A DNA stretch of 25,458 bases from a virus, in IMG/VR virus record IMGVR_UViG_3300031758_000521, positions 1 to 25,458 of that record; one strand, given 5' to 3'. Shown here one piece after another: positions 5,312-21,350 of the stretch. A program made the translations under genes and the position numbers. The notes beneath the pieces were generated by a model. That model was not told the origin of the DNA. It was given only the letters and a program-made list of their open reading frames with translations, and made no database searches. Position 1 is the first letter of the stretch, and the number at the start of each line of letters is the position of its first letter.

Positions 5312-6034
5312 CTACCTTTCAATGCTCACATGATGATTAATAACTTTTCTGCTAGAGAACGGAATGTCCTTTATCAGCGATTCAAACTCCATTGTACTAT
5401 ACCGACTCTTAAAAGTCAAATTCTTATCGGTAAACAAAAACACAAGCAACTCATTAGAATGACTTTTGCCATTTAGTAATTCTGCCTGCATCTTGTATCG
5501 CTCAGATGGAATTTGAACCTCTTTGTTAATCTCCAGCACTTTGTCAGTATAGACTAGTTGATACTGTTTGTCAACTAGATTGAAAACGCCAACGGTACCG
5601 GTAATCCCAGAGACTGCACGGAAAACAAATCGTTCACCTTGCTTGAAGTTATTCTTGCCTTCAACGTGAAATTTTATTGTATTGGTAATCTTCTCTACAT
5701 CGGCTACAATATCAACTTCACACACTTGCCGATTTCTGTCAGGATAAACTTGTTTGTCTTTCTTGATGATTGTTTTAATCTCACCACTCACTTCGGTGTA
5801 AAGAGTAGAAAGCATAGTACACTTCTCATCTTTACAATTTTCGTTTTGTGCAGATTCAATCAATTCACCAACAAAATTTGCAATTGCATTTTGCTTTGCT
5901 TTTTCTTCAGCAAGTCTACACGCAACATTCTCAGCAGTATCAGGACCGAATGAATATTCACCAGTACCCGACACACGTTCAGCATGTGCAAGACTACTCA
6001 CACAAAGCAAAGTCATAATAAAGAGTTTACGCAA
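5312..6034 (-). CDS. Exported FlgT-N-like / DUF4384-like protein
   Basis: 240 residues with a Sec signal (MRKLFIMTLLCVSSLAHAE). Residues about 20-115 follow the FlgT N-terminal/LPP20 pattern (GTGEY...AENVACRLAEEKAKQNAIANFVG, four Cys likely forming disulphides). The C-terminal part (GERFVFRAVSG...GVFNLVDKQYQLVYTDK) resembles DUF4384. I start it at TTG 6034, which has AAGGA 7 nt upstream and begins a full signal peptide; an ATG at 6016 would give a short one. It overlaps the upstream gene by 8 nt. Predicted periplasmic. Together with the LPP20-like gene it recalls the FlgO/P/T set of outer-membrane flagellar proteins. Confidence 0.68.
   Translation of the reverse strand: MRKLFIMTLLCVSSLAHAERVSGTGEYSFGPDTAENVACRLAEEKAKQNAIANFVGELIESAQNENCKDEKCTMLSTLYTEVSGEIKTIIKKDKQVYPDRNRQVCEVDIVADVEKITNTIKFHVEGKNNFKQGERFVFRAVSGITGTVGVFNLVDKQYQLVYTDKVLEINKEVQIPSERYKMQAELLNGKSHSNELLVFLFTDKNLTFKSRYSTMEFESLIKDIPFSSRKVINHHVSIER
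5546..5574 (-). promoter_or_regulatory. Candidate internal promoter within a coding region
   Basis: TATACT (5546-5551), 17-bp spacer, TTGACA (5569-5574), a 12/12 consensus match on the minus strand inside the FlgT-like gene. It could boost the lipoprotein genes downstream (5307 to 3634). There is no upstream palindrome. A chance match within coding sequence is possible. Confidence 0.5.
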
Positions 6035-6520: not shown

Positions 6521-6595
6521 TGGTGGGCTGACTAGGAATTGAACCTAGACTCAATGAATTATGAGTTCACTGCTTTACCATTAAGCTATCAGCCC
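6521..6595 (-). tRNA. tRNA with CAT anticodon (Met, or Ile2 after lysidine modification)
   Basis: 75 nt including encoded CCA. Acceptor GGGCTGA/TCAGCCC, anticodon stem GTGAA/TTCAT, loop CTCATAA, T stem CTAGG/CCTAG. It is isolated from the main array. Its 5' end overlaps the last 15 nt of the hldD-like gene. Identity between elongator Met and Ile2 cannot be settled by eye. Confidence 0.9.
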
Positions 6596-7354
6596 GTTTA
6601 CTTTACTCATGTCTGCACGTGTATATTCTTGATAACTGTTTTTCAAATTATCTGGCATTGGAATTTCTACAATATCAGCTTTATGCTTATCTGCAATTTC
6701 CTCAGCAACATCTAAAAAACTTTTTGTCTCACCTGTTCCAATGTTAAAAACACCAGACTCTTTACAATCTAAGAACTTCAAATGATATTGTATCACACTT
6801 TCTACAGGAATGAAATCCCTGAAATATTTGTCACTACCATGGAAGACTTTAATCTTGCCAGTTTCTTTAGCTTGTTTGGCAAACTGAGTTTGTGGACTTG
6901 CTTGATTGCCCTTATGCTCTTCACCAGAACCATACACATTAAAGTATCTAAAACCTTGTACAATTGATCCGCATGGATGTTTACGCACATGACGTTCAAA
7001 CAAATACTTCGACCATGCATATGGTGTTCTTGGGTCTAATGGCGACTCTTCGGTAAACTCTTGATTCAAACCATATACACTCGCTGAACTTGAGTATTGA
7101 AAATTAACACCAAACATCTTACATGCATCATACAGTTGAATGCTGAAATCTAAATTTTGTGTTAAAACTTTTTCAATGTCTTTCTCTGTTGTTGCACTGA
7201 TTGCGCCAATGTGAATAACCCAATCTTGTTCCATAACACTTGGTAATTGTTTATCGCCCCATTCATACGTATCAACAGAATGTCCTGCATTCTCTAATGC
7301 AGTAAGCATATGACTACCGATGAAACCTTTGTGACCCGTCAGAAGAATTTTCAT
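6581..7354 (-). CDS. hldD: ADP-glycero-manno-heptose 6-epimerase-like, C-terminally shortened
   Basis: 257 residues. Short-chain epimerase with an N-terminal Rossmann motif TGHKGFIGSH (6-15), YSSSASVYG (87-95) and catalytic Tyr112-x3-Lys116 (PYAWSK). RYFNVYGSGEEHKG and YFRDFIPVESV are typical of HldD/RfaD, which converts ADP-D,D-heptose to ADP-L,D-heptose for the LPS inner core. It ends soon after YQEYTRADMSK, where bacterial HldD (about 310 residues) continues for some 30 residues more. The last codons and stop lie inside the tRNA at 6521-6595. The start overlaps the cupin stop (ATGA). Other SDR epimerases are possible, but the gene set supports HldD. Confidence 0.82.
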   Translation of the reverse strand: MKILLTGHKGFIGSHMLTALENAGHSVDTYEWGDKQLPSVMEQDWVIHIGAISATTEKDIEKVLTQNLDFSIQLYDACKMFGVNFQYSSSASVYGLNQEFTEESPLDPRTPYAWSKYLFERHVRKHPCGSIVQGFRYFNVYGSGEEHKGNQASPQTQFAKQAKETGKIKVFHGSDKYFRDFIPVESVIQYHLKFLDCKESGVFNIGTGETKSFLDVAEEIADKHKADIVEIPMPDNLKNSYQEYTRADMSKVNGLIA

Positions 7355-7707
7355 TTCTGAGAATCTCCAGGAAGAACTCTATAATTGTCTTCAACGGAAT
7401 CTGGAGTAGACACTTCAATGATTGTGCCTTCTTCTAAGCAAATCACTTGATGTGGTTCTAGTGGCTCATTGCGCCAAACGTCACCCTCATTCAGAATTGT
7501 GTTACGCATACTAGCATCTTTAGTCTGAATGTACTTAACTTCAAACTTGCCATTCAAGACATACCATGTTTCATCTTTGTGTGCATGAAAGTGCATACTG
7601 AATTTTGCGCCTGTGTTAAACTTCAACAGCTTACCGCAATACTTATCATTGGTTGCAAAAATGAATTCGTGCCCCCAACCTTTTTCAACAAAGCCTTCTA
7701 ATCTCAT
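7351..7707 (-). CDS. Cupin, phosphomannose isomerase type II-like
   Basis: 118 residues, one cupin barrel. KGWGHEFIF near the N-terminus and SMHFHAHKDETWYVLNGKFEV (37-57) carry the metal-binding His/Glu pattern; a second motif includes PHQV (about 84-87). This matches the cupin half of mannose-6-phosphate isomerase/mannose-1-phosphate guanylyltransferase and the sugar-nucleotide cupins. It sits between the heptose kinase and epimerase genes with 4-nt overlaps on both sides, so it probably acts on a sugar phosphate or nucleotide sugar of the same pathway. The exact reaction is unknown. Confidence 0.85.
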   Translation of the reverse strand: MRLEGFVEKGWGHEFIFATNDKYCGKLLKFNTGAKFSMHFHAHKDETWYVLNGKFEVKYIQTKDASMRNTILNEGDVWRNEPLEPHQVICLEEGTIIEVSTPDSVEDNYRVLPGDSQK

Positions 7708-8495
7708 TGTATCTCCTTTAGTGTGGGTGCATAATTACCCACATGCTGTACTGTAATTGACGATGCTTTATTTGCAAATTTGATTGCATCATCAATGCTA
7801 TTCGTCACAAGATATTGATAAGCTAATGCGGCTAAGAATGTATCGCCTGCACCACACACATCAAGAACATCAACTTTTTTTGTTGGGTAATTTGTATTGA
7901 CATGTTCACTACGTAGCATTGCGCCATCGGCACCCAATGTTACAATCATATCCCATGCATATGACTCAGCCGCTTCAAATTCTTTTTCGTTGATTTTAAC
8001 AAAAGCACCATTGAATGCTTCTAAGTTTCTTTTCTTCGTATCGATAAAAACTGGTCCATTAAAATCGTGAATCAGATTTTGGATATGCTCATAAGTTAAA
8101 AAGCCTTTGTTGTAATCAGATATAACAACAGCATCATAACCTTCGGTATCTACAATTCCATTCCACGGCTCTATCTTTGGCTCTTCATCTATTCTGACGA
8201 TTTGATATCCAGACTTTTCGTCTATGATTCTAGTCTTTGTGATTCTTGGTTCGCCATTGACACCTGCCGCTTGATTTGAAATTATCGTTGTGTCACAGCC
8301 GAGTTTGTACAGATTGCTATGGACATTTCGTGCCATACCAAGTCTGGTTTCTTTTCGTGTTAGTTTGATTACGGGAATTGGTGCTTCTGGACTCAATCTG
8401 TCGATTGTTCCATATTGATAAACATCTATGCAAGAATCACCGAGTAGCAATATCTTGAATTTTGTTTGTGGTTGAGTACTGTTCAAGTCTGTCAT
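7704..8495 (-). CDS. PfkB-family heptose-7-phosphate kinase (HldE N-terminal domain-like)
   Basis: 263 residues from the ATG at 8495 (an ATG at 8552 is in frame but deeper in the upstream gene). KILLLGDSCIDVYQYG followed by RLSPEAPIPV is the signature of the RfaE/HldE kinase domain, which makes heptose 1,7-bisphosphate. ETRLGMARNVHSNLYKLG matches the Gly-rich segment, and VDVLDVCGAGDTFLAAL near the C-terminus is the PfkB anion-hole/catalytic motif with the active-site Asp. Slightly shorter than the bacterial domain (about 315). It overlaps the nucleotidyltransferase gene by 59 nt and the cupin gene by 4 nt. Confidence 0.88.
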   Translation of the reverse strand: MTDLNSTQPQTKFKILLLGDSCIDVYQYGTIDRLSPEAPIPVIKLTRKETRLGMARNVHSNLYKLGCDTTIISNQAAGVNGEPRITKTRIIDEKSGYQIVRIDEEPKIEPWNGIVDTEGYDAVVISDYNKGFLTYEHIQNLIHDFNGPVFIDTKKRNLEAFNGAFVKINEKEFEAAESYAWDMIVTLGADGAMLRSEHVNTNYPTKKVDVLDVCGAGDTFLAALAYQYLVTNSIDDAIKFANKASSITVQHVGNYAPTLKEIQ

Positions 8496-8838
8496 AAAAT
8501 TTAATTTCTTTACAGAATTCGGCACCAATGATCGGTGTGTTTCTGTAGTCACTTCCTTTAACCATTATATCAGGCTTATAGTCACGAATCAAGTTTATCA
8601 ATTCTTCATCGGTATCAAACACATCTACTCTATCTACGTATTTAAGTGCGAATAATAATGATGTACGTTCATACTCGGTATTGATTGGTCTATCTGCACC
8701 TTTTAATTCTTTGATGCGTCTGTCGCTATCAGTAAGCACGTACACGTATGCGCTAGGATAAGATTTTGCATACTGCAATAATCGCAAGTGTCCTAGATGT
8801 ACAATATCAAATGATCCGTTTACTATAATTTTCATCAT
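8437..8838 (-). CDS. Heptose-1-phosphate adenylyltransferase-like (HldE C-terminal domain-like)
   Basis: 133 residues from MMKIIVNGSFD; any earlier start would lie in the tRNA upstream. NGSFDIVHLGHLRLLQYAK (7-25) is the cytidylyltransferase-type HxGH nucleotide-binding motif, and MVKGSDYRN and YSTTNKI match the KGGDY and STT-x-KI motifs of RfaE2/HldC, which joins heptose 1-phosphate to AMP. Bacteria such as E. coli fuse this to the kinase (HldE); here the halves are separate and in swapped order. No strong ribosome binding site is visible; the gene begins 11 nt past the tRNA-Leu end. Confidence 0.87.
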   Translation of the reverse strand: MMKIIVNGSFDIVHLGHLRLLQYAKSYPSAYVYVLTDSDRRIKELKGADRPINTEYERTSLLFALKYVDRVDVFDTDEELINLIRDYKPDIMVKGSDYRNTPIIGAEFCKEIKFYDRLEQYSTTNKIQDIATR

Positions 8839-8849
8839 ACATTTATATA

Positions 8850-8936
8850 TGGTGCGAGTAGCCGGACTCGAACCGGCACACCTTTTAAAGCGAGAGATTT
8901 TAAGTCTCTTGTGTCTACCAATTTCACCATACTCGC
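8850..8936 (-). tRNA. tRNA-Leu(TAA)
   Basis: 87 nt with CCA. Acceptor GCGAGTA/TACTCGC, anticodon stem AGAGA/TCTCT, loop CTTAAAA, long class II variable arm, discriminator A. Reads UUA/UUG. Confidence 0.96.
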
Positions 8937-8940
8937 TAAC

Positions 8941-9015
8941 TGGTCCGGCGTGAGGGAATCGAACCCCCATAATGACTTTAGAAGAATCATGTCCTATCCG
9001 TTGAACGAACGCCAG
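8941..9015 (-). tRNA. tRNA-Arg(TCT)
   Basis: 75 nt with CCA. Acceptor CTGGCGT/ACGCCGG with one G-T pair, D stem GTTC/GGAC, anticodon stem TGATT/AGTCA, loop CTTCTAA. Reads AGA/AGG, codons typically rare in proteobacterial hosts. Confidence 0.93.
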
Positions 9016-9034
9016 AATTAATTTCTATACACGT

Positions 9035-9063
9035 AGTATAGTCTACATTTTCTATCTTGTCAA
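9035..9063 (-). promoter_or_regulatory. Consensus promoter inside the tRNA array (unboxed)
   Basis: TATACT (9035-9040), 17-bp spacer, TTGACA (9058-9063), 12/12 consensus, no palindrome upstream. The -35 nearly touches the 3' end of tRNA-Gly. It would drive tRNA-Arg, tRNA-Leu, the heptose genes and on to the terminator at 3552. Confidence 0.8.
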
Positions 9064-9064
9064 G

Positions 9065-9138
9065 TGGAGCGGGGTAAGAGAATCGAACTCTCAGCATTAG
9101 CTTGGAAGGCTAAGGTATTACCACTATACGAACCCCGC
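9065..9138 (-). tRNA. tRNA-Gly(TCC)
   Basis: 74 nt with CCA. Acceptor GCGGGGT/ACCCCGC, D stem GTAT/ATAC, anticodon stem TTAGC/GCTAA, loop CTTCCAA, T stem GAGAG/CTCTT, discriminator T. Confidence 0.95.
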
Positions 9139-9145
9139 ATTTTTT

Positions 9146-9219
9146 TGGCTACCCACCAGGGACTCGAACCCCGACCAACGGTTTTGGAGACCGTGATGCT
9201 GCCATTACACCAGTGAGTA
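9146..9219 (-). tRNA. tRNA-Trp(CCA)
   Basis: 74 nt with CCA. Acceptor TACTCAC/GTGGGTA, anticodon stem ACGGT/ACCGT, loop CTCCAAA, T stem CGGGG/CCCTG, discriminator G as expected for Trp. It begins 1 nt past the stop codon of the gene upstream (9221-9523). Confidence 0.95.
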
Positions 9220-9220
9220 A

Positions 9221-9523
9221 TTATTTGTTTAATTGTCTGAACTTAACTTCTTTGGTTTCTTCATTGTACTTATGAATTGCATCATACTCATCATCATACA
9301 ATCCTAATTCTTCATTAGCAGTATGTAACTTGTCTAACGCATCTTGGCGTTTCTTATTGAATGCTTCATAGCCTTCTTTGGTTCCCAATTCATATCCTTT
9401 ATCGGAATGAATTTCTTCAGCCGATTTGATATTCTTTTTAAAGATGGCATCAAATCGATTTGCGTATTCTTCCTGACTTACGCTAAATGGACGTGGTGCG
9501 CTTCCTTTTCCACCATCACTCAT
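9221..9523 (-). CDS. Conserved phage protein (SDGGKGSxPRPFSV family)
   Basis: 100 residues. The N-terminus MSDGGKGSAPRPFSVSQEEY followed by ANRFDAIF is a pattern I know from a widespread small phage protein of unknown function. The rest is helical, charged and rich in Lys/Glu with several Tyr. There is no signal peptide. It is coupled to the gene upstream by an ATGA overlap, with an AGGGTG ribosome binding site. It lies between tRNA-Trp and tRNA-Ala inside the tRNA array. Confidence 0.85.
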   Translation of the reverse strand: MSDGGKGSAPRPFSVSQEEYANRFDAIFKKNIKSAEEIHSDKGYELGTKEGYEAFNKKRQDALDKLHTANEELGLYDDEYDAIHKYNEETKEVKFRQLNK

Positions 9524-9966
9524 AAAATCACCCTATGATATTCGTAGTTAACTGTATCGTCATTCTCTCTAAAAACAACTGCACCATTACGCATATGAAA
9601 ACGTTTAGCCATTTCAGTCTTAGGACTCAGCGTAACGTATCTTTGAATCTCTGGTTTGTTTTCTTTGATGTGTTTAACAGCATCAAAAATTAATGTGCGA
9701 CCTGCACCTGGAGCATAACTCCAAATGGTATAAAATATTGCAACAATCGGTTCAGATGAAATCTGAAACAATTCAGTTTCTTTTGTTGGAATTTCTGTTT
9801 GATAACTTACGCATGTGATTGCTTTCACTTGTTCATTTTCGTCACGTAACACAAAGATATCTTTGTTGTCACCAACTCTGTCAACATGTGGAATATGAGG
9901 ACGCACAGGGTCTTCACTTAACATACTCATTACACTATCAGTAAACGATTTTATTAGATATAACAT
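9520..9966 (-). CDS. GNAT-like acetyltransferase-fold protein
   Basis: 148 residues. After an acidic N-terminus, a strand (VKAITCVSYQT, about 47-57), a long central strand (EPIVAIFYTIWSY) and then APGAGRTLIFDAVKHI (about 90-105), which resembles the GNAT acetyl-CoA loop and helix. The C-terminal PKTEMAKRFHMRNGAVVFRE matches the closing strand-helix of small acetyltransferases ('A..F..k.Ga'). The pyrophosphate-binding loop is not the full R/Q-x-x-G-x-G/A, so activity is uncertain. Coupled with 9221-9523 by a 4-nt overlap and enclosed by tRNA genes. Confidence 0.62.
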   Translation of the reverse strand: MLYLIKSFTDSVMSMLSEDPVRPHIPHVDRVGDNKDIFVLRDENEQVKAITCVSYQTEIPTKETELFQISSEPIVAIFYTIWSYAPGAGRTLIFDAVKHIKENKPEIQRYVTLSPKTEMAKRFHMRNGAVVFRENDDTVNYEYHRVIL

Positions 9967-9987
9967 TCTATACTTTCATTTCTTATA

Positions 9988-10062
9988 TGGTGGAGAATAA
10001 GAGATTCGAACTCTTGACTATTGCTTGCAAAGCAATTGCGTTCCCAATTACGCCAATCCCCC
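9988..10062 (-). tRNA. tRNA-Ala(TGC)
   Basis: 75 nt with CCA. Acceptor GGGGGAT/ATTCTCC with two G-T pairs, D stem GCGT/ACGC, anticodon stem ATTGC/GCAAT, loop TTTGCAA, discriminator A. Confidence 0.94.
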
Positions 10063-10073
10063 ATTATTATATT

Positions 10074-10150
<77 letters not shown>

Positions 10151-10151
10151 A

Positions 10152-10159
10152 TATTTATA
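10152..10159 (-). promoter_or_regulatory. Possible T4-type late promoter octamer
   Basis: The minus strand reads TATAAATA, the exact T4 late consensus, in the 10-nt gap between tRNA-Thr and tRNA-Pro. It could direct late synthesis of tRNA-Pro and genes to the left. With one 8-bp hit in AT-rich DNA, chance is a serious alternative. Confidence 0.3.
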
Positions 10160-10160
10160 C

Positions 10161-10234
10161 TGGTGCCCCATGACAGAATCGAACTGCCGTAACCTGATTA
10201 CAAAACAGGTGTAATGCCATTATACTAATAGGGC
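10161..10234 (-). tRNA. tRNA-Thr(TGT)
   Basis: 74 nt with CCA. Acceptor GCCCTAT/ATGGGGC, anticodon stem CCTGT/TCAGG region, loop TTTGTAA, T stem GGCAG/CTGTC, discriminator A. Confidence 0.93.
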
Positions 10235-10240
10235 TAAAAC

Positions 10241-10984
10241 TTAAATTATCTTCTCCATTATATTCTTTGCTAAGTTATCCACATCGGCTCTTGTTGTGCC
10301 TCCGAGAATAACAATAGCATACTGTTCACCATTCTTATGTACGATCATCACAAGACACTTACCAGCCGCATTCGTTGTGCCAGTTTTAGATACTTCAATG
10401 ATATCATATTTGTTCATCAACTTCACGTTAGTGTTATTGACTGGAATGTGTTTCTCTCTATTCTTCTTATCTACGACTTTCAAATCGTATCTACTCAATG
10501 CAGATATATCACGTATCTTATCATGCCTGTACGCATCTGTCAACATGATAACTAAATCTTTTGCGGTACTAATGTTCTTTGCACTCAGACCAGATACATC
10601 ATCAAATTTTGTATCGTACATTTGAAGCATAATTGCACGTTTATTCATTTGATAAACTGTCCACAATTTACCACCCATGCTTTCTGCTAATGCTTCTGCG
10701 GCTCTGTTGTCACTTTTGACTAACATTAAATTCAACAATTCTTCTCTAGTGAATTTCTTGTGTGAATAGAACATTCCTTTATATGGAACTTTCTCATCCA
10801 ATGAAACTCCACTCTCAAGTAACACCAATGCAGTCATCAGTTTCGTAATGCTTGCTATTGGTCTCATTTTATCAATTTCAGCATCAACAATCGGATATTG
10901 TTTTGTGATGTTGTATGCGTAAACTGTAATAGCATTAGCACTCAAACAAGTCAATAGGATTAGAGATAAGATTATTTTTTTCAT
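10241..10984 (-). CDS. Exported D,D-peptidase (peptidase S11, PBP7-like)
   Basis: 247 residues with a Sec signal (about residues 1-18). All three penicillin-binding motifs are present: Ser45-x-x-Lys48 (SITK), Ser91-Asp-Asn93 (SDN) and Lys200-Thr-Gly202 (KTG). RPIASITKLMTALVLLE and LLNLMLVKSDNRAAEALAE follow the PbpG/DacA pattern. It should cut D-Ala-containing peptide bonds in periplasmic peptidoglycan. It lacks the C-terminal amphipathic anchor domain of DacA, so it is closer to the endopeptidase PBP7. It lies between tRNA-Thr and tRNA-Asn as cargo in the tRNA array. Possible roles are cell-wall remodelling during infection, lysis support or blocking superinfection. Confidence 0.92.
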   Translation of the reverse strand: MKKIILSLILLTCLSANAITVYAYNITKQYPIVDAEIDKMRPIASITKLMTALVLLESGVSLDEKVPYKGMFYSHKKFTREELLNLMLVKSDNRAAEALAESMGGKLWTVYQMNKRAIMLQMYDTKFDDVSGLSAKNISTAKDLVIMLTDAYRHDKIRDISALSRYDLKVVDKKNREKHIPVNNTNVKLMNKYDIIEVSKTGTTNAAGKCLVMIVHKNGEQYAIVILGGTTRADVDNLAKNIMEKII

Positions 10985-10998
10985 ATTCTTCTTTGTAA

Positions 10999-11077
10999 TG
11001 GCTCCGAGTAAGAGGATCGAACTCTTCTAACCAGTGATTAACAGTCACGCCCATGCACCTTGCTCGGGTTTCTCGGA
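10999..11077 (-). tRNA. tRNA-Asn(GTT)
   Basis: 79 nt with CCA. Acceptor TCCGAGA/ACTCGGA with an A-A mismatch at the last pair, large D loop, anticodon stem of four clear pairs plus a C-T mismatch, loop CTGTTAA, discriminator G as in bacterial Asn. Somewhat degenerate but coherent. Confidence 0.86.
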
Positions 11078-11084
11078 ATAAAAT

Positions 11085-11158
11085 TGGAAGCGGGTGTTGG
11101 ATTCGAACCAACGATGCACCTGGCTTATGAGACCGGTGTGGTGACCGCCCTACCCGCT
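11085..11158 (-). tRNA. tRNA with CAT anticodon, irregular D and anticodon arms (Met, possibly initiator)
   Basis: 74 nt with CCA. Acceptor AGCGGGT/ACCCGCT, loop CTCATAA, T stem GTTGG/CCAAC, discriminator T. The D stem and the anticodon stem each contain a mismatch. There is no C1-A72 mismatch of the bacterial initiator type. Which Met (or Ile2) role it has is unclear. Confidence 0.8.
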
Positions 11159-11171
11159 ATATTATATATCT

Positions 11172-11248
11172 TGGAGTGAGTGACAGGACTCGAACCTGCA
11201 TAGAACGGATTTGCAATCCGTAGCCTAACCATTCAGCGGCACACTCAC
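11172..11248 (-). tRNA. tRNA-Cys(GCA)
   Basis: 77 nt with CCA. Acceptor GTGAGTG/CACTCAC, anticodon stem ACGGA/TCCGT, loop TTGCAAA, discriminator T as is typical for Cys. Confidence 0.94.
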
Positions 11249-11257
11249 ATAAAAACT

Positions 11258-11332
11258 TGGCGATGCGTGGGAGAATCGAACTCCCGTAAGCGGATAGACA
11301 ATCCGCAGTAATAACCTCTATACGAACGCACC
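11258..11332 (-). tRNA. tRNA-Asp(GTC)
   Basis: 75 nt with CCA. Acceptor GGTGCGT/ACGCATC, anticodon stem GCGGA/TCCGC, loop TTGTCTA, discriminator G as for Asp. Confidence 0.95.
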
Positions 11333-11341
11333 TAAAAAACT

Positions 11342-11426
11342 TGGTGGAGACAGTAAGATTCGAACCTACTCACCCGAAAGAACAGATTTACAGTCTGCCG
11401 CAACTCTCCAACTTTGCCGTATCTCC
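11342..11426 (-). tRNA. tRNA-Tyr(GTA)
   Basis: 85 nt with CCA. Acceptor GGAGATA/TGTCTCC, anticodon stem GCAGA/TCTGT, loop CTGTAAA, long class II variable arm as in bacterial Tyr tRNA. Confidence 0.94.
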
Positions 11427-11441
11427 AAAATACTAAACTCA

Positions 11442-11517
11442 TGGTACACGATAGGGGAATCGAACCCCTCTTCCCGCCGTGAAAGGGCGGTGTCCTAAAC
11501 CGATAGACGAATCGTGC
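11442..11517 (-). tRNA. tRNA-Glu(TTC)
   Basis: 76 nt with CCA. Acceptor GCACGAT/ATCGTGT, D stem GTCT/GGAC, anticodon stem CCGCC/GGCGG, loop CTTTCAC, T stem AGGGG/CCCCT. Confidence 0.95.
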
Positions 11518-11540
11518 ATACTTTTTTAATCTATGAATAG

Positions 11541-11569
11541 AGTATAACACTCTAAACATTTTCTGTCAA
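11541..11569 (-). promoter_or_regulatory. Consensus promoter inside the tRNA array (unboxed)
   Basis: TATACT (11541-11546), 17-bp spacer, TTGACA (11564-11569). The sequence just upstream (AATGTTG) recalls the proximal core of the boxed promoters, but the GTTG-N8-CAAC palindrome is absent. It would drive tRNA-Glu and the tRNAs and genes to its left. Confidence 0.8.
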
Positions 11570-11578
11570 CAACATTTT

Positions 11579-11666
11579 TGGCAGAGAGTATGAGATTCGA
11601 ACTCATGCACCGCTTTCGCAATGACAGTTTAGCAAACTGCTGGTTTAACCACTCACCCAACTCTCT
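11579..11666 (-). tRNA. tRNA-Ser(GCT)
   Basis: 88 nt with CCA. Acceptor AGAGAGT/ACTCTCT, anticodon stem GCAGT/ACTGT, loop TTGCTAA, long variable arm, discriminator G. Confidence 0.95.
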
Positions 11667-11673
11667 ATAATTT

Positions 11674-11763
11674 TGGCGGAAGCGGTGAGATTCGAACTCA
11701 CGGAACATTTCTGTTCGACAGTTTTCAAGACTGTTGCCATAAACCAGACTCGACCACACTTCC
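11674..11763 (-). tRNA. tRNA-Ser(TGA)
   Basis: 90 nt with CCA. Acceptor GGAAGTG/CGCTTCC, anticodon stem ACAGT/ACTGT, loop CTTGAAA, long variable arm, discriminator G. Confidence 0.95.
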
Positions 11764-11769
11764 ATAACT

Positions 11770-11844
11770 TGGTGCGCCCTGAGAGAATCGAACTCCCACT
11801 CGTAGGTTCGTAGCCTACTGTAATATCCATTTTACTAAAGGCGC
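11770..11844 (-). tRNA. tRNA-Arg(ACG)
   Basis: 75 nt with CCA. Acceptor GCGCCTT/AGGGCGC, D stem GTAA/TTAC, anticodon stem GTAGG/CCTAC, loop CTACGAA. A34 would need the host TadA deaminase to become inosine. Confidence 0.93.
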
Positions 11845-11855
11845 ATAAAAACATT

Positions 11856-11932
11856 TGGTGCCCTCTCTCAGATTCGAACTGAGACTTTACGGCTTCTAAG
11901 ACCGTCCTCTCTACCAATTGGAGTAAGAGGGC
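11856..11932 (-). tRNA. tRNA with TAG anticodon (Leu by codon) but short variable loop
   Basis: 77 nt with CCA. Acceptor GCCCTCT/AGAGGGC, anticodon stem ACGGT/GCCGT, loop CTTAGAA, T stem CTCAG/CTGAG, discriminator A. The anticodon UAG would read CUA (Leu), yet the variable region is only about 5 nt, unlike the long arm of every bacterial tRNA-Leu. The amino acid identity is therefore open. Confidence 0.85.
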
Positions 11933-11935
11933 ACT

Positions 11936-12009
11936 TGGTTCCCAGAGAAAGAATTGAACTTTCGATAATCGCTTATCAAGCGACCGTTATACCATTTAAC
12001 TATCCGGGA
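11936..12009 (-). tRNA. tRNA-Ile(GAT)
   Basis: 74 nt with CCA. Acceptor TCCCGGA/TCTGGGA, D stem GTTA/TAAC, anticodon stem GTCGC/GCGAT, loop TTGATAA, discriminator A. Confidence 0.93.
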
Positions 12010-12018
12010 CTATCTTGT

Positions 12019-12093
12019 TGGTACCTTGTGACGGGATTGAACCGCCGACCTTCTCCTTGTAAGGGAGACACTCTACCGCTGAGTTAACAAGGC
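12019..12093 (-). tRNA. tRNA-Val(TAC)
   Basis: 75 nt with CCA. Acceptor GCCTTGT/ACAAGGT, anticodon stem TCTCC/GGAGA, loop CTTACAA, T stem GGCGG/CCGTC. Confidence 0.95.
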
Positions 12094-12102
12094 AATTTTC
12101 TT

Positions 12103-12178
12103 TGGGGTGACCTATGGGATTTGAACCCATCCTATCGGAATCACAATCCGAGGTGCTGACCGCTAACACTAAGGTCAC
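12103..12178 (-). tRNA. tRNA-His(GTG)
   Basis: 76 nt with CCA. Acceptor GTGACCT/AGGTCAC, anticodon stem TCGGA/TCCGA, loop TTGTGAT, discriminator C as for His. The base before G1 is T, so the usual encoded G-1 of bacterial tRNA-His is missing. Confidence 0.94.
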
Positions 12179-12190
12179 ACCAAAGAAAAC

Positions 12191-12265
12191 TGGTAGGGGC
12201 ACCGAGAATCGAACTCGGATTTACTGGTTAAAAGCCAGCTACTCTAGCCGTTGAGTTATACCCCC
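12191..12265 (-). tRNA. tRNA-Lys(TTT)
   Basis: 75 nt with CCA. Acceptor GGGGGTA/TGCCCCT, D stem ACTC/GAGT, anticodon stem GCTGG/CCAGT, loop CTTTTAA, discriminator A. Confidence 0.94.
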
Positions 12266-12269
12266 AAAT

Positions 12270-12344
12270 TGGTGGTGACAGTTGGATTTGAACCAACGAC
12301 CGATTGCGTATGAAGCAATTGCACTACCGCTGTGCTATGTCACC
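12270..12344 (-). tRNA. tRNA-Met(CAT), elongator-like
   Basis: 75 nt with CCA. Acceptor GGTGACA/TGTCACC, D stem GCAC/GTGC, anticodon stem ATTGC/GCAAT, loop TTCATAC, T stem GTTGG/CCAAC, discriminator A. One of three CAT-anticodon tRNAs in the window. Confidence 0.92.
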
Positions 12345-12347
12345 ATT

Positions 12348-12421
12348 TGGCAGGGGATACAAGAATCGAACTTGTGCCAACGGAATCAAAATCCGTTGTG
12401 CTACCATTACACTAATCCCCA
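12348..12421 (-). tRNA. tRNA-Gln(TTG)
   Basis: 74 nt with CCA. Acceptor TGGGGAT/ATCCCCT with a U1-U72 mismatch, D stem GTGT/GCAC, anticodon stem ACGGA/TCCGT, loop TTTTGAT, discriminator G as for Gln. First tRNA after the operon leader. Confidence 0.92.
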
Positions 12422-12488: not shown

Positions 12489-12549
12489 AGTATAACACAA
12501 TCGGAAAGACTGTCAACAACTATTTTCATAGATGTTGTTTTCATACAAC
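12489..12549 (-). promoter_or_regulatory. Boxed sigma70-type promoter of the tRNA array
   Basis: TATACT (12489-12494), 16-bp spacer, TTGACA (12511-12516), a 17-bp gap, palindrome GTTG-N8-CAAC (12534-12549). It drives the leader with boxA and the tRNA array from tRNA-Gln leftwards. Confidence 0.87.
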
Positions 12550-15713: not shown

Positions 15714-15774
15714 AGTATACCACAATGGGCACACTTGTCAACAACTATTTTCGATTCTGTTGTTTTTTTGCAAC
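15714..15774 (-). promoter_or_regulatory. Boxed sigma70-type promoter
   Basis: TATACT (15714-15719), 16-bp spacer, TTGACA (15736-15741), a 17-bp gap, palindrome GTTG-N8-CAAC (15759-15774) with seven T in the middle. It drives 14788-15676. The early transcribed sequence matches that of the promoter at 3489. Confidence 0.88.
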
Positions 15775-19967: not shown

Positions 19968-19996
19968 AGTATACCTACAATCCGTTCGGTTGTCAA
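19968..19996 (-). promoter_or_regulatory. Consensus promoter of the Rnh operon (unboxed)
   Basis: TATACT (19968-19973), 17-bp spacer, TTGACA (19991-19996). There is no palindrome upstream. Transcription would start near 19961, which makes the ATG at 19928 the likely first start codon. Confidence 0.78.
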
Positions 19997-21321: not shown

Positions 21322-21350
21322 AGTATAACATAACAATCATGGCATGTCAA
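21322..21350 (-). promoter_or_regulatory. Consensus promoter of the secreted-protein operon (unboxed)
   Basis: TATACT (21322-21327), 17-bp spacer, TTGACA (21345-21350). The -35 overlaps the stop codon of the GIY-YIG gene. It drives 19998-21296. Confidence 0.78.

Follow-up and report, generated by a model that had tools for sequence, protein, structure and literature searches.

The stretch of DNA analyzed here (the window) is a 25,458-nucleotide virus contig from IMG/VR record IMGVR_UViG_3300031758_000521 that encodes a T4-type RNase H. A 48-kb contig, L261, showed 85-94% nucleotide identity to the window over most of the shared region and carries T4-like gp32, gp59, baseplate and tail-tube genes; the window was therefore regarded as part of the genome of a T4-like myophage. 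BLAST of the window against the remainder of the near-relative contig, which extends past the window's left edge, gave no matches. Four open, overlapping genes (NT, KIN, CUP, and EPI) run along the minus strand from 8838 down to 6581, where the first-pass annotation had placed four adjacent heptose-type genes including a cupin; family models and intact motifs confirmed that description. Overlaps between successive genes are 59 bp (NT/KIN), 4 bp (KIN/CUP), and 4 bp (CUP/EPI). The cassette lies in a tRNA region, with 22 tRNA genes at 6521-12421 covering most amino acids. The features at the locus are:

9035-9063, minus strand: sigma70-like promoter TTGACA-N17-TATACT, upstream of tRNA-Arg, tRNA-Leu and the cassette
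8850-8936, minus strand: tRNA-Leu(taa), immediately upstream of NT
8437-8838, minus strand: NT, HldC-like nucleotidyltransferase (TIGR02199, HLGH and STT motifs, PHROG 7878)
7704-8495, minus strand: KIN, HldA-like PfkB-family kinase of 263 aa, compact form (TIGR02198, PDB HldA 4e84, motifs); alternative start GTG at 8552
7351-7707, minus strand: CUP, single-domain cupin with a complete HxH/E/H metal site (Cupin_2, invariant residues, model)
6581-7354, minus strand: EPI, HldD-like ADP-heptose 6-epimerase of 257 aa, C-terminally short (TIGR02197, E. coli HldD 1eq2)
6521-6595, minus strand: tRNA-Met(cat), overlapping the end of EPI, including its stop codon

A tRNA-Met gene likewise follows the cassette in L261 (4748-4822). 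Comparison with L261 yielded dN/dS values of 0.32 for NT (based on few changes), 0.16 for KIN, 0.018 for CUP, and 0.078 for EPI, and this purifying selection indicated that all four are maintained genes. Decay to a pseudogene, or truncation of EPI by the tRNA-Met gene, was rejected, since dN/dS is low and a short C-terminus is common in the viral family, for which both a short KIN and a short EPI are normal.

The promoter at 9035-9063 is conserved in L261 (2282-2310). It is one of eight near-perfect sigma70-like sites (TTGACA-N16/17-TATACT) in the window, against 0.03 expected by chance, all on the minus strand (1840-1867, 5546-5574, 9035-9063, 11541-11569, 12489-12516, 15714-15741, 19968-19996, and 21322-21350). 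Some of these sites sit in dispersed repeats of approximately 90 bp that are common to the window and L261. The tRNA-Leu(taa) gene is probably co-transcribed with NT, and the sharing of a sigma70-like promoter by cassette and tRNA genes suggests that the cassette is expressed early, together with these tRNA genes. Control by T4 late promoters was rejected, as the single TATAAATA in the window corresponds to chance level.

For three of the four proteins, the best-scoring NCBIfam models were those of heptose enzymes: TIGR02199 for NT (E 1.7e-29; 102.5 bits, vs. 44 for TagD), TIGR02198 for KIN (E 1.8e-47), and TIGR02197 for EPI (E 1.1e-62). These models outscored any unrelated model by wide margins. 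Scores were nevertheless below the curated equivalog cut-offs (bits/cut-off: NT 102.5/181.5, KIN 162/345, EPI 212/274.6), and the three proteins are therefore treated as divergent relatives and named HldC-, HldA-, and HldD-like only. The closest solved relative of KIN was Burkholderia HldA (4e84, E 4e-19). EPI aligned to E. coli HldD (1eq2) with an E-value of 1.7e-40, Y140, K144, and K178 of HldD corresponding to Y112, K116, and K148 of EPI. Motifs were intact in NT (HLGH, STT), KIN (SPEAPIPV, NEKE, GAGD), EPI (GxxGxIG, YxxxK, HKG), and CUP (HxHx4E). Together with this retention of catalytic motifs, the homology of kinase, nucleotidyltransferase, and epimerase to the bacterial ADP-heptose enzymes suggests putative substrate and nucleotide specificities of the ADP-heptose pathway for NT, KIN, and EPI. 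The window set differs from the bacterial pathway in its compact, sub-cut-off enzymes, in the lack of GmhB and in the presence of a cupin in the place of the SIS-fold GmhA. Absence of GmhA and GmhB had already been noted in the first-pass annotation, and indeed neither an SIS_2 GmhA nor a GmhB or mini-HAD phosphatase was detected in the window.

CUP matched the Cupin_2 and MannoseP_isomer families. Across 30 homologues, K9, W11, G12, E14, K26, H39, H41, K44, E46, H86, E98, D107, and R110 were invariant; these include the metal ligands (H39, H41, E46, and H86) as well as three lysines and an arginine (K9, K26, K44, and R110) that would suit a sugar phosphate. An AF2 model (pLDDT 91) showed a fold different from that of SIS-fold GmhA. 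Fold searches with this model retrieved a Thermococcus phosphomannose isomerase (Z 14.7) and a D-lyxose isomerase (Z 13.8), but CapF, quercetinase, and KdgF scored as high as the isomerases, so that cupin functions are not separable by this criterion. Cupin phosphomannose and D-lyxose/mannose isomerases (7zvm, 7zvy, 7nzo) resemble CUP in their single barrel and HxH/E/H metal site, and the aldose-ketose isomerization that they catalyze is of the same kind as the putative chemistry of CUP, although identity to CUP over the fold is only 13-21%. Conversion of sedoheptulose-7-phosphate to heptose-7-phosphate is the phosphomannose isomerase reaction, one carbon longer. Two other assignments of CUP were rejected: cysteine dioxygenase (the PHROG and RefSeq label), because no CDO model of Pfam or NCBIfam matched, and an RmlC-type 3,5-epimerase, because dTDP_sugar_isom did not match and the metal site is intact. 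To our knowledge, RmlC-type epimerases do not need a metal.

The first-pass annotation had proposed that either host enzymes or the cupin must substitute for the missing early steps, and the distribution of CUP and GmhA was compared over viral and cellular loci. CUP occurred in 71 of the 72 viral loci that have EPI plus KIN or NT, the one CUP-less locus ending at a contig edge, and GmhA in none of them. A viral scan seeded with GmhA yielded 80 loci, 20 with KIN or NT (several arranged as GmhA-KIN-NT) and none with CUP, while a cupin-seeded scan yielded 78 new loci, 55 with KIN or NT and none with GmhA; these exclusivity counts are not phylogenetically independent and could in part reflect phage lineage. 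No SIS_2 (PF13580) GmhA was found in five complete cassette-bearing cyanophage genomes and 21 viral contigs, the window included, nor was a true GmhA found in 16 further contigs of up to 355 kb. Cellular loci followed the same pattern. A bacterial operon (L114) has the order CUP-HldA-GmhB-HldC, with a GmhB that passes the equivalog cut-off of NF006506, and its draft genome gave no SIS_2 match. Within one bacterial class, G303 and G090 carry GmhA-KIN-NT and no cupin, whereas G032 carries cupin, KIN, NT, and EPI and no GmhA. In phage and cell loci alike, the cupin thus takes the isomerase slot of heptose operons to the exclusion of GmhA. These counts and operons support the suggested substitution by the cupin, for the GmhA step specifically: on this comparative evidence CUP most likely does the job of GmhA, as a sedoheptulose-7-phosphate isomerase, a judgement that falls on the favorable side of even. 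In a literature search for a link between a cupin and isomerization of sedoheptulose-7-phosphate, no cupin was mentioned in any of the papers listed.

Myophages of Prochlorococcus and Synechococcus have members of all four families, as do more than 100 IMG/VR contigs. The full set of four was present at 107 viral loci, in numerous arrangements and with correlated distances (Mantel r 0.29-0.66). In P-SSM2, NT, KIN, CUP, and EPI correspond to T4-GC 304, 305, 307, and 308, which are among seven co-occurring "LPS genes" whose functionality was left undecided by Sullivan et al. (2010; PMC3037559). Co-occurrence of these genes was thus already noted in 2010, and what is new is the probable replacement of GmhA by a cupin. 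While the cyanophage clusters (P-SSM2, S-SM2, S-SSM7, and S-CAM1) contain the same four families as the window, they also have their own mini-HAD protein (T4-GC 306), which has no equivalent in the window. One contig with NT, cupin, kinase, epimerase, and mini-HAD genes (L101, 5543-10408) is part of a metagenome-assembled genome labeled Bifidobacterium breve, probably through a binning error.

T4-GC 306 is named "phosphoheptose isomerase" in RefSeq cyanophage records, yet it has no SIS domain. Its HAD motifs (DxD, T, K, and DD) were all invariant in 18 homologues, and it matched TIGR01689, a capsule biosynthesis phosphatase model. In both sequence and fold it was closest to 9iqw (E 8e-20, Z 12.2), with GmhB at Z 8.5-8.7. 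By its PDB title, 9iqw is AfhF, a phage D-arabinose-1,5-diphosphate phosphatase; a literature search on AfhF/HY126 gave nothing relevant. From its motifs, the TIGR01689 match and the likeness to 9iqw, T4-GC 306 is classed as a HAD phosphatase that probably fits the GmhB step. The labels "phosphoheptose isomerase" for T4-GC 306 and "cysteine dioxygenase" for T4-GC 307 look wrong. In P-SSM2 (NC_006883.2, locus L085), they are carried by PSSM2_311 and PSSM2_312, the former a HAD phosphatase and the latter a cupin without a CDO match. In four loci of another type, a canonical GmhB-like gene replaces the mini-HAD. In the window, L261, and several further relatives of freshwater type, neither mini-HAD nor GmhB was found beside the cassette. 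Since some LPS core is still produced by E. coli without GmhB, a host phosphatase may serve in such phages.

With respect to use of the sugar, a GT9-like gene that adjoins a NodU-type carbamoyltransferase gene was seen beside the cassette and near tail-fiber genes in S-CAM1, in P-SSM2, and in most of the marine-type loci whose flanks are long enough. The product of the GT9-like gene gave a weak or borderline PF01075 match and has the heptosyltransferase motif DSxGQHxA. In contrast to P-SSM2 and S-CAM1, no GT9-like or carbamoyltransferase gene was found in the window or its relatives of up to 99 kb, all of which are fragments. A heptosyltransferase elsewhere in the genome, for which the first-pass annotation had recommended a search, was thus encountered as a candidate in marine relatives and not in fragments of the window lineage. 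The same annotation had suggested that the genes might restore the LPS receptor. This cannot be a general role, because the best-known carriers infect marine cyanobacteria, and marine Synechococcus LPS lacks heptose (PMC4515613), so that the cassette cannot serve to rebuild a normal core there. Carbamoyl groups on heptose are known from Pseudomonas LPS (PMC8005017). For two further suggested roles, precursor depletion and DNA modification, this analysis gave no positive evidence. The sugar would most likely serve to alter a glycan on the surface of the infected cell or to supply a phage glycan. Other glycan-related genes were seen in the window, where genes for an LpxH-like metallophosphoesterase and for a GT2 glycosyltransferase truncated at the contig edge (23990-25458, plus strand) lie on the strand opposite to the cassette, and in a near relative (L346, 6427-9304), which has a cluster of GT2, sugar C-methyltransferase, and NAD-dependent epimerase genes left of the region covered by the window.

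Taken together, these observations can be accommodated in a five-step ADP-heptose route through cupin, kinase, phosphatase, HldC-like and HldD-like enzymes, which we consider reasonably probable. The cupin would act as a metal-dependent ketose/aldose sugar-phosphate isomerase that replaces GmhA and converts sedoheptulose-7-phosphate to D-glycero-D-manno-heptose-7-phosphate. By homology, the HldA-like kinase would then phosphorylate C1. The 7-phosphate would be removed by a phosphatase, supplied by the phage mini-HAD in many relatives, by a canonical GmhB in a few and, in the window phage, presumably by the host. AMP would be added by the HldC-like enzyme and C6 would be epimerized by the HldD-like enzyme, both steps being assigned by homology and the last also by the retained catalytic residues. 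A broader proposal is given slightly better than even credence. In it, the cupin represents a second, non-orthologous kind of sedoheptulose-7-phosphate isomerase, which aquatic T4-like and jumbo phages have spread and some bacteria use. Phages would thereby have a GmhA-independent route to ADP-heptose, and in marine phages this route would supply a GT9-like heptosyltransferase and a carbamoyltransferase.

An alternative is that host GmhA performs the first step, the host perhaps owning this enzyme, and that the cupin has another function, for example in ring opening or anomerization of the heptose phosphate, as in KdgF, or in later epimerization or tailoring of the nucleotide sugar. The match of KdgF cupins to the CUP model would fit such a role, as would the existence of phages with a cupin and no kinase. 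Phages of this kind are also the main weakness of the favored five-step route, against which the sub-cut-off scores, the generic fold matches and the missing mini-HAD of the window count as well. No cassette partner was present for six viral cupins flanked on both sides by 4 kb or more, and no HldA-like kinase was found in two whole cupin-bearing contigs of 141 and 259 kb. Four contigs combine cupin and epimerase genes with a GmhB-like gene and a carbamoyltransferase gene and have no kinase or transferase nearby; three of them also have a GT9-like gene. In the cupin tree, the lone cupins occupy scattered positions, a pattern that fits repeated loss without proving it. Campylobacter is reported to use RmlC-type cupins on heptose nucleotides (PMC7949155). 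The mutual exclusion of cupin and GmhA and the position of the cupin in the GmhA slot of phage and cell operons argue against this alternative. If host GmhA were sufficient, loss of the cupin would be expected more often than the single case among 72 loci. Moreover, the metal ligands of CUP are invariant, unlike the situation in epimerases of the RmlC type, generally known as metal-free, whose dTDP_sugar_isom model CUP does not match. This alternative is accordingly rated as unlikely, albeit not negligible. Among the cupin loci without a nearby kinase or transferase, L273 (7962-12736) and L293 (2656-7414) carry cupin, epimerase, carbamoyltransferase, and GT9-like genes, and the GmhB-like protein in both has a broken DxD motif (DRGVIL). 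Two stand-alone cupin relatives (L281, 7098-8357; L314, 7995-9397) adjoin a gene that was judged QueE-like by eye, and neither has heptose genes in its vicinity.

It is improbable that the set activates a different sugar. One example would be D-arabinose, which RB69/LC53-type phages use for DNA hypermodification; the cupin would then isomerize a pentose phosphate. The arabinose pathway (AfhF; Serratia phage LC53; RB69 group) has a similar logic of isomerase, phosphatase, and nucleotidyltransferase, and the mini-HAD family, with AfhF as its closest relative, is common to that pathway and to relatives of the cassette. However, its isomerase and transferase are of their own types, annotated in LC53 as a D-arabinose-5-phosphate isomerase and a separate "NTP transferase domain" protein, and the LC53 set has no annotated HldC-like gene, cupin, or HldD-like gene next to it. 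EPI, in addition, keeps the catalytic residues of HldD, which acts on C6, a carbon that is absent from pentoses, and some relatives of the cassette use a canonical GmhB. Still less credible is that the genes are cargo without a function in infection, a stuffer for headful packaging, an idea raised earlier for the LPS gene clusters of cyanophages. This possibility was not settled by Sullivan et al. (2010; PMC3037559) and gene order is fluid, but the strong purifying selection, lowest in dN/dS for the cupin, the intact active sites, the co-retention across more than 100 loci and the conserved promoter all speak against it.

If the assignment of CUP as the isomerase of an ADP-heptose route is correct, it would explain the gene co-occurrence in cyanophages that was noted, and left open, in 2010. 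It would also name an unrecognized enzyme for the first committed step of the ADP-heptose pathway, an antibiotic target, and correct the "phosphoheptose isomerase" and "cysteine dioxygenase" annotations in many phage records. It raises the question why phages of cyanobacteria with heptose-free LPS make ADP-heptose; a heptosylated, carbamoylated glycan of phage or host is a possible product.

Two further genes were observed in the window, both on the minus strand. An HNH/NUMOD4 homing-type endonuclease gene (2213-2704) has no counterpart at that place in L261 and is probably a recent mobile insertion. At 10241-10984, the phage encodes a protein resembling S11 D-alanyl-D-alanine endopeptidases/carboxypeptidases (Peptidase_S11, E 2.8e-34), in which the SxxK, SDN, and KTG motifs are intact.
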